Source: Deltaproteobacteria bacterium
GTDB lineage: Bacteria > Desulfobacterota > Deferrimicrobia > Deferrimicrobiales > Deferrimicrobiaceae
Length of the DNA stretch: 64,000 nucleotides
Direction: 5' to 3'
Assembly (NCBI GenBank): GCA_016218975.1
Contig: JACRCO010000097.1
Span: 1 to 64,000 of the forward strand
The notes under the pieces were generated by a model that ran no database searches, was not told the origin of the DNA, and was given only the letters and a program-made list of their open reading frames with translations. Below are positions 11,289-58,385 of this stretch, one piece after another (positions within the stretch are counted from its first letter, which is position 1; every line of letters starts with the position of its first letter). The position numbers and the translations under genes were made by a program.

Positions 11289-11494
11289 ATGCGCGCAACC
11301 TGCCCGTGTGCCATCGTGCTTCGCGAGGGTCCGTTTTTACTATGTTTTTCCATTTGCAGCGCTAAGACTTTGAATTTTATCATCCTGCGGCATCGCATTC
11401 CCTTTCTTTTTTCGGGCCGGAGAGAATCCGGCGGCTGCGGCTGCGTCTCCAACATGGTGAGACACGCGAATGAATCGGATGAGGAAAATGCATC

Positions 11495-12232: not shown

Positions 12233-12271
12233 ATGTAACGTCCTTTGCATCCTCCTTCCCCCGAACCGCAA

Positions 12272-12354
12272 TTCTCACCATGATTCATTGTATTGCGGCT
12301 TGCTGCCATGGACGGACCTGTATCCGCCGCAGTAGCGGATGCATGGTAAAAATG
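12272..12354. repeat. Intergenic structured repeat, two inverted units (copies L and A)
   Basis: The right unit (12306-12354) shares 17 exact bases (GTATCCGCCGCAGTAGC, 12320-12336) plus the following GCATGGT and AAATGG with the unit at 58334-58377. It can fold into an outer CCATG/CATGG stem (12306-12310 with 12342-12346) around an inner ATCCGC/GCGGAT stem (12322-12327 with 12335-12340). The left unit (12272-12310), read on the other strand, matches the same element: TTCTCACCATG, TTC, TGCGGC and GCCATG appear in order. The two units thus face each other around a GCCATGG centre, like paired REP/BIME elements. It fills much of the 210-nt gap between two forward genes. Confidence 0.6.
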
Positions 12355-12442
12355 GGGGCAAGTCCTGCGTATTCAATAAAGATTTCTGCGGCCGTTTCCG
12401 AAATCCTAATTGTCCGAGGGGTTCGGCGGCAGGAGGCAGGCG

Positions 12443-20475: not shown

Positions 20476-20706
20476 GCCTGCGGGGATGCAGTGGATCTCG
20501 AATGCCGGTATCTGTTTACTGTGCGGCGGCCGCCCTCCAGGGATCCGTTCCCGAAGAGACCGAGCATAGAGAGGTCCAATGCGCCCCGCCAGGCGAGGCG
20601 CCCGTCTGAAGCGTACCACGTGGTACGGTGAAGGAGGGCAACGAAGCCTGCGGGGATGCAGTGGATCTCGAATGCCGGTATCTGAGGGAATGGATCCCTG
20701 GAGGGC
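20476..20706. repeat. Repeat island between the sorbosone-dehydrogenase-like gene and atpC
   Basis: Two identical 39-nt direct repeats, beginning GCCTGCGGGGATGCAGTGGA, occupy 20476-20514 and 20646-20684. A 20-nt inverted repeat (GCCCTCCAGGGATCCGTTCC at 20532-20551, and 20687-20706) pairs at 19 of 20 positions. Between them are a near-perfect 21-nt palindrome at 20581-20601 (GCGCC-C-CGCC-A-GGCG-A-GGCGC) and a perfect 16-nt palindrome at 20612-20627. I see no gene in this 279-nt gap (20431-20709). The arrangement resembles a collapsed or composite palindromic repeat rather than a known insertion sequence; there is no transposase remnant. Confidence 0.8.
20612..20627. other. Perfect 16-bp palindrome resembling a diverged parS site
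   Basis: CGTACCACGTGGTACG is its own reverse complement. It shares the CCACGTGG core and 12 of 16 positions with the parS site at 29618-29633. It is inside the repeat island next to atpC, about 9 kb from that site. Binding by ParB is possible but unproven, because outer positions 4 and 13 differ from the consensus. Confidence 0.4.
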
Positions 20707-58333: not shown

Positions 58334-58377
58334 CATGGCCGTATCCGCCGCAGTAGCAGAAGCATGGTGAGAAATGG
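58334..58377. repeat. Intergenic structured repeat, single unit (copy B)
   Basis: The unit shares GTATCCGCCGCAGTAGC (58341-58357) and, after two changed bases, GCATGGT-A-AAATGG with copy A at 12306-12354. The inner stem seen in copy A is broken here. The 10-mer CATGGTGAGA at 58363-58372 recurs at 270, 11453 and, inverted, 12273. It sits in the 121-nt gap between the cysteine-cluster gene and the tautomerase gene. Confidence 0.6.
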
Positions 58378-58385
58378 CGGCCAGG

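Follow-up and report, generated by a model that had tools for sequence, protein, structure and literature searches.

Short intergenic repeats of a Deferrimicrobiaceae genome as probable remnants of a non-autonomous IS1380-type transposon family

Introduction

What is the origin of the short, structured repeats that recur in unrelated gaps between genes of this contig? The window (the whole stretch of 64,000 nucleotides analysed here, from a deltaproteobacterium of the Deferrimicrobiaceae) had been read from its letters alone as holding a family of REP/BIME-like or small RNA elements. We propose with high confidence, judging from the sequence of their ends and target, that what remains in these gaps derives from a family of non-autonomous transposons (MITEs) of the IS1380 type. 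A repeat that had been anonymous can thereby be assigned to a transposon family for which an enzyme type, a target and a test can be named.

Three copies of one element in the window

The window has two exact occurrences of the 17-mer GTATCCGCCGCAGTAGC, one at 12320 and one at 58341, and the matching flanks that were first noticed around it are real, with the similarity extending over 44 bp at 86% identity (BLAST within the window, E 1e-7). The 10-mer CATGGTGAGA is found at 270, 11453 and 58363 on the plus strand and at 12273 on the minus strand. The clear copies of the element number three, all of them intergenic by codon-usage gene calls. The best family match, originally listed as a weaker relative, is a single left arm at 243–294 on the minus strand (the arm itself spanning about 247–290), flanked by TTAT and TTAA and having one mismatch to the 23-bp arm consensus CCCGCATTTCTCACCATGGTTCG at 265–287; the TTA at 288–290 serves as stop codon for gene 288–797 on the minus strand. 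The second copy is degraded and two-armed, aligning to the covariance model at 12265–12359 (E 0.18 when taken alone). Its left terminal arm (ACCGCAATTCTCACCATGATTCATTGTATTGCGGC, 12265–12299, plus strand) has four mismatches to the arm consensus and its right terminal arm (CCTGTATCCGCCGCAGTAGCGGATGCATGGTAAAAATGGGGG, 12318–12359, plus strand) was placed by this alignment and by the 44-bp match at 86% to the 58.3-kb copy. The inversion reported at 12272–12310 is thus genuine, yet what was taken for a separate second copy is the opposite terminal arm (12265–12299) of a single degraded element whose end lies near 12358. The third copy is a right arm at 58334–58384 on the plus strand (the arm itself 58334–58380; CATGGCCGTATCCGCCGCAGTAGCAGAAGCATGGTGAGAAATGGCGG, then CCAG), supported by the same 44-bp match and by the arm-consensus search.

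A fourth stretch at 11438–11468 on the plus strand (CGTCTCCAACATGGTGAGA) is a doubtful decayed remnant, having only CGTCTCCA and CATGGTGAGA in common with the left arm and giving no covariance-model match in the window scan; the common motifs of the relative suggested at 11445–11463 are confirmed, its membership of the family is doubtful. The nested stems described for one copy (copy A) are present (fold z −2.2), but the inner ATCCGC/GCGGAT stem is not a conserved fold, because its bases are private to copy A and copy B has AGCAGAAGC instead.

The top match in the window to covariance model R1, by structure rather than by sequence, is a separate long imperfect hairpin of 167 nt at 20536–20702. 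It overlaps a 36-bp direct repeat, TGCGGGGATGCAGTGGATCTCGAATGCCGGTATCTG, with copies at 20479–20514 and 20648–20684, the 30-bp core of which has only these two occurrences in the genome and no Rfam match.

The full-length element and its spread

A search of the 2.95-Mb draft genome to which the window belongs brought up many more copies, and the outline of the element was read from their flanks. The full element is about 176 bp long (CCCGCATTTCTCACCANGGTTCG...AGAAGCNTGGTGAGAAATGCGGG, or, with longer termini, CCCGCATTTCTCACCATGGTTCGTCGCGAGGCGGTGGAGACGGG ... CCCGTATCCGCCGCCGCAGCAGAAGCATGGTGAGAAATGCGGG), forms an imperfect palindrome over its whole length, contains no transposase gene and is bounded by 4-bp YTAR duplications. 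Copies range from 53 to 307 bp, 176 bp being the commonest form. The terminal inverted repeats extend over 16 bp or more, the 16-bp ends reading CCCGCATTTCTCACCA (also given as CCCGCATTTCTCACC), and their outermost CCC..GGG pairs are invariant in 25 copies.

The left-arm consensus has 60 matches in the genome at up to three mismatches, against none for its reversed control, and BLAST with the consensus gives 68 matches, so that the dispersed, structured intergenic family foreseen from the window does have additional copies genome-wide. Chance similarity in GC-rich gaps might be invoked since the 10-mer matches alone are weak; it is refuted by this 60 to 0 ratio and by the empty sites described below, and its probability is practically nil. 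Across the taxonomic family, consensus BLAST finds matches in 17 of 24 genomes and 9 of 11 genera. In an even sample of the phylum the exact end with its target is present in 10 of 395 genomes, all but one of which lie within the taxonomic family.

Units at the two extremes of length have features of their own. In the copies of 228–307 bp (L004, L007, L014, L025 and L085) a hairpin, CGCTCCCGCCATCCATGGCTCCCGCGGCACTTGTCCATCCATGGACG, is inserted within the right half; it is apparently a further element or a hairpin expansion. Very small units of 29–50 bp, CCCGCGTATCTCACCACGGTTCGTGCGGG being one example, are found at L094, L132, L128 and L051 and have YTAR-like sequence flanking one side or both; they are shorter than expected for a working DDE transposon, and would be either deletion products or minimal mobile hairpins.

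Target duplications, empty sites and placement

Among 25 paired copies in this genome the 4-bp flanks are identical in 11 and differ by one base in 11 more, and 32 of the 50 flanks are YTAR, mostly TTAA, CTAG and TTAG. Clean duplications are missing at the flanks of several copies; the flank composition in 57 further copies is again C/T, T, A, G/A. Some of the duplicated flanks (TTAG/TTAG, TAAA/TAAA) are not palindromic and therefore represent true duplication. Empty sites point the same way: at L003, L010 and L015 the joined flanks align to sequence of the congeners G003 or G001 that lacks the element. Of the window's own copies, that at 243–290 is absent from the homologous place in G001 and that at 58.3 kb is absent from three congeners, where unrelated sequence fills the interval.

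Nearly all copies (44 of 45) are intergenic, compared to 44% expected from the distribution of YTAR sites; genic insertions have therefore been purged, and the intergenic placement is the outcome of purifying selection. A functional preference for stop codons was considered and rejected, as the frequency of exact abutment, 14 of 44 copies, equals the share that stops make up of the permitted YTAR sites (in the window 10 of 36, or 28%). The same figures bear on the proposal that the repeats are cis-acting regulatory RNAs or terminators conserved at particular genes. The strong hairpin and the position of several copies just 3′ of genes would fit such a role, but the genes next to the copies differ, orthologous places lack them, stops are abutted as often as YTAR sites predict and there is no orientation bias relative to neighbouring genes (13 vs 11), which makes this explanation very unlikely.

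The duplications also bear on the reading of the repeats as REP/BIME elements that would be mobilised by a RAYT. REP/BIME elements with their RAYT make no target duplication and use a 5′ GTAG-type tetranucleotide guide; here YTAR duplications are found on both sides. The repeats do look REP-like, being short palindromes between genes that occur as single arms or in pairs, and a search for a RAYT gene, as the original prediction advised, finds one Y1_Tnp gene in the genome. This sole Y1/RAYT-like gene is, however, located on an 18.5-kb contig (C20) without any copy of the family, is flanked by an unrelated repeat, GGGACGTTCTTAAAAA, and the termini of our element are those of a transposon with YTAR duplications, empty sites in congeners and IS1380-family ends. 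The REP/RAYT reading is thus already contradicted, and we consider it extremely improbable. The Y1 gene itself (L070, G000:C20, at 2139–2459, in a 322-aa frame) lies between copies of AACAGGGACGTTCTTAAAAA, one further copy of which is found just inside a MITE arm at L033; gene and repeat may constitute the real REP/RAYT pair of this genome.

IS1380 partners and the proposed mechanism

Which transposase would recognise these ends? A search of the genomes of the taxonomic family with profile PF13701 revealed in G021 an intact IS1380 transposase frame of 487 aa (PF13701 E 1.9e-153, NF033539 E 1.4e-118). It is bounded by CTAG followed by CCCGGATTTCTCACCGG on one side and by CCGGTGAGAAATCCGGG followed by CTAA on the other, 1745 bp apart, with one mismatch to our element in the terminal 15 bp. 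Only the terminal 15–17 bp are common to the autonomous IS and the MITE, the interiors being different. The end with its target, YTARCCCGCATTTCTCACCA, is found in at least 119 stretches of public genomes from many phyla, Acanthopleuribacter pedis and Tamilnaduibacter salinus being among the carriers, and 8 of 16 genomes carrying the end have IS1380 genes. Similar boundaries are seen in a gammaproteobacterial IS1380 (L225) with a CTAG duplication on both sides and ends CCTGGATTTCTCACCG, and in an internally deleted IS1380 of 974 bp (L235, in the MITE-bearing genome G150) with ends CCCGCATATCTCACCA and CCCGCATCGCTCACCA and CTAG on both sides. A relative in Sinorhizobium NGR234 (60% identity) has TTAG on both sides and one end well kept. 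Named plasmid members of IS1380 have only 23–33% identity to the nearest transposases. Since the ends of our element and its YTAR target match those of IS1380 elements, the repeats are very probably IS1380-type MITEs.

The profile search found no intact IS1380 gene in this genome or its three congeners, and therefore the copies look orphaned; they may indeed be so, or the IS may have been lost in an assembly gap. Other DDE genes of the genome (on C15, C50 and C61) were considered as partners and dismissed, having no matching ends. The ORFs inside 85 unpaired element ends contain no convincing transposase, and the one IS110-type gene among them was judged unrelated.

The most likely mechanism is as follows. 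An IS1380-family DDE transposase, supplied in trans, would recognise the 16-bp ends and insert the ~176-bp palindrome at YTAR (CTAG, TTAA, TTAG), duplicating 4 bp; that an IS1380 enzyme does the moving is very probable. Insertions would persist almost only between genes, often right at a TAA or TAG stop, where they could survive because the YTAR duplication restores the stop codon. Later internal deletions, favoured by the palindrome, would then reduce copies to the short hairpins and lone arms that the window contains. YTAR together with CCCGCATTTCTCACCA provides an annotation anchor for many draft genomes, in which these palindromes are often found at contig ends.

Fold and strand bias

The consensus hairpin derived from 25 full copies has 63 pairs, with 98.3% of cells able to pair. 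The absence of compensatory changes had been named in advance as evidence against a structured family; such changes on both sides are present in 15 of the 63 pairs, compared to 2.8 in shuffles, and position 17/160 is C-G, U-A, G-C and A-U in different copies. When 82 copies are scored against the Watson-Crick-only consensus pairing, G-U cells outnumber A-C cells by 176:43, and columns with at least three such cells by 15:3 (two-sided binomial 0.008, for copies that share ancestry). The same strand is lower in fold energy in 82 of 82 copies. Strand-symmetric causes predict equal numbers of G-U and A-C cells, and so the excess of G-U hints at selection on one folded strand, suggesting a constraint acting on it.

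The element would in that case still be mobile, while selection would in addition maintain its long hairpin in single-stranded form (RNA or ssDNA), for spread, stability or the host. The double changes, the G-U excess and the uniform strand difference speak for this addition, as do the cross-phylum counts given below. On the other side, the copies are related, so the counts are not independent and the shuffle controls ignore ancestry; inherited internal-loop bases alone could generate a consistent strand difference; hairpin-templated correction at quasi-palindromes is another possible source of double changes; and there is no orientation bias towards neighbouring genes. The element has no Rfam match either: Rfam 15 gives no match at or above the gathering score in the window and nothing relevant for the full copies. 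We therefore regard selection on the single strand as a tentative addition, less likely than not.

Relatives in other phyla

Relatives 174–189 bp long that have these ends, are flanked by YTAR and can be aligned in their interiors are found in MAGs named Gammaproteobacteria, Myxococcales, Holophagae/Acidobacteriota/Thermoanaerobaculales, Gemmatimonadetes (Gemmatimonadota), Neomarinimicrobiota and Fermentibacteria, where for single cases contamination of the MAG bin is possible. Interior motifs are shared, for example TTCGTAGCGAG near base 20, GGCGTA...TACGTYGAG at the tip and CGCAGYAGA near the 3′ arm. Identity to these relatives exceeds that to copies with shuffled interiors in most cases, not in all, and often by a modest margin. 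In an alignment of 21 sequences (A2, mean column identity 63%) double changes occur in 36 of 51 stem pairs, involving 173 cells vs 60.9 in shuffles, and the score of 0.469 compares with 0.180 in shuffles, slid pairings reaching no more than 0.105. Sequences were oriented by their resemblance to the family of the window rather than by energy, and the strand so chosen is the more stable one in 21 of 21 sequences overall and in 14 of 14 outside the taxonomic family.

With such a cross-phylum, strand-biased fold the repeats might still have a small RNA role, as raised by the original prediction. It may be that all these mobile hairpins belong to one ancient family that borrowed IS1380 transposases and so reached six or more bacterial phyla, its length staying close to ~176 nt, its strand-specific fold and internal-loop motifs being conserved, and its folded single strand (RNA or ssDNA) being under selection; on balance we are inclined to doubt it. 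MITEs are usually lineage-bound and short-lived. Retention of length, fold and motifs across phyla would be unusual for a MITE and would raise the question of what the hairpin strand does.

The lengths of end pairs from other genomes peak at 170–179 bp (14 pairs), with a second peak at 240–249 bp (13). Another MITE type, about 240 bp long, combines the same CCCGCATTTCTCACCA ends and YTAR target with a different interior and is found at L121, L123, L129, L130, L164, L165 and other loci, in Gammaproteobacteria and Acidobacteria MAGs.

Comparison with known systems

Our literature search for IS1380 MITEs, for the terminal sequence or for such a cross-phylum hairpin found nothing directly relevant, and the nearest descriptions concern other repeats. 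In Geobacter bemidjiensis, palindromic 'multicopy nucleotide sequences' were reported with no mechanism given (PMC2996986); like ours they are intergenic and deltaproteobacterial, a likeness of description and not of sequence. The Chunjie MITE of Geobacter uraniireducens (235 bp, with 38 copies of 178–235 bp plus 57 partial ones; PMC10969869) is also deltaproteobacterial and intergenic, with terminal repeats and many partial copies, the comparison again being by description and not by the sequence of the ends. Coxiella burnetii has, in 78 copies of ~190 bp, QMITE2 (PMC10969869), a long hairpin MITE whose truncated copies look REP-like, as do the copies in the window, but it has 7–9 bp duplications and 23–29 bp ends.

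REP/BIME elements with a RAYT resemble the repeats as short intergenic palindromes, single or paired, and differ in that here the ends are of the DDE type with duplications and no RAYT is linked. There is also likeness to the IS1380 family (for example ISEcp1, IS1247, ISBdi2; NF033539 / PF13701), with which the element has in common the ends CCCGSATTTCTCACC and the YTAR duplication, matching the IS1380s of G021 and of MAGs from other phyla; the MITE differs from these autonomous elements in carrying no transposase gene and in sharing with them just the terminal 15–17 bp.
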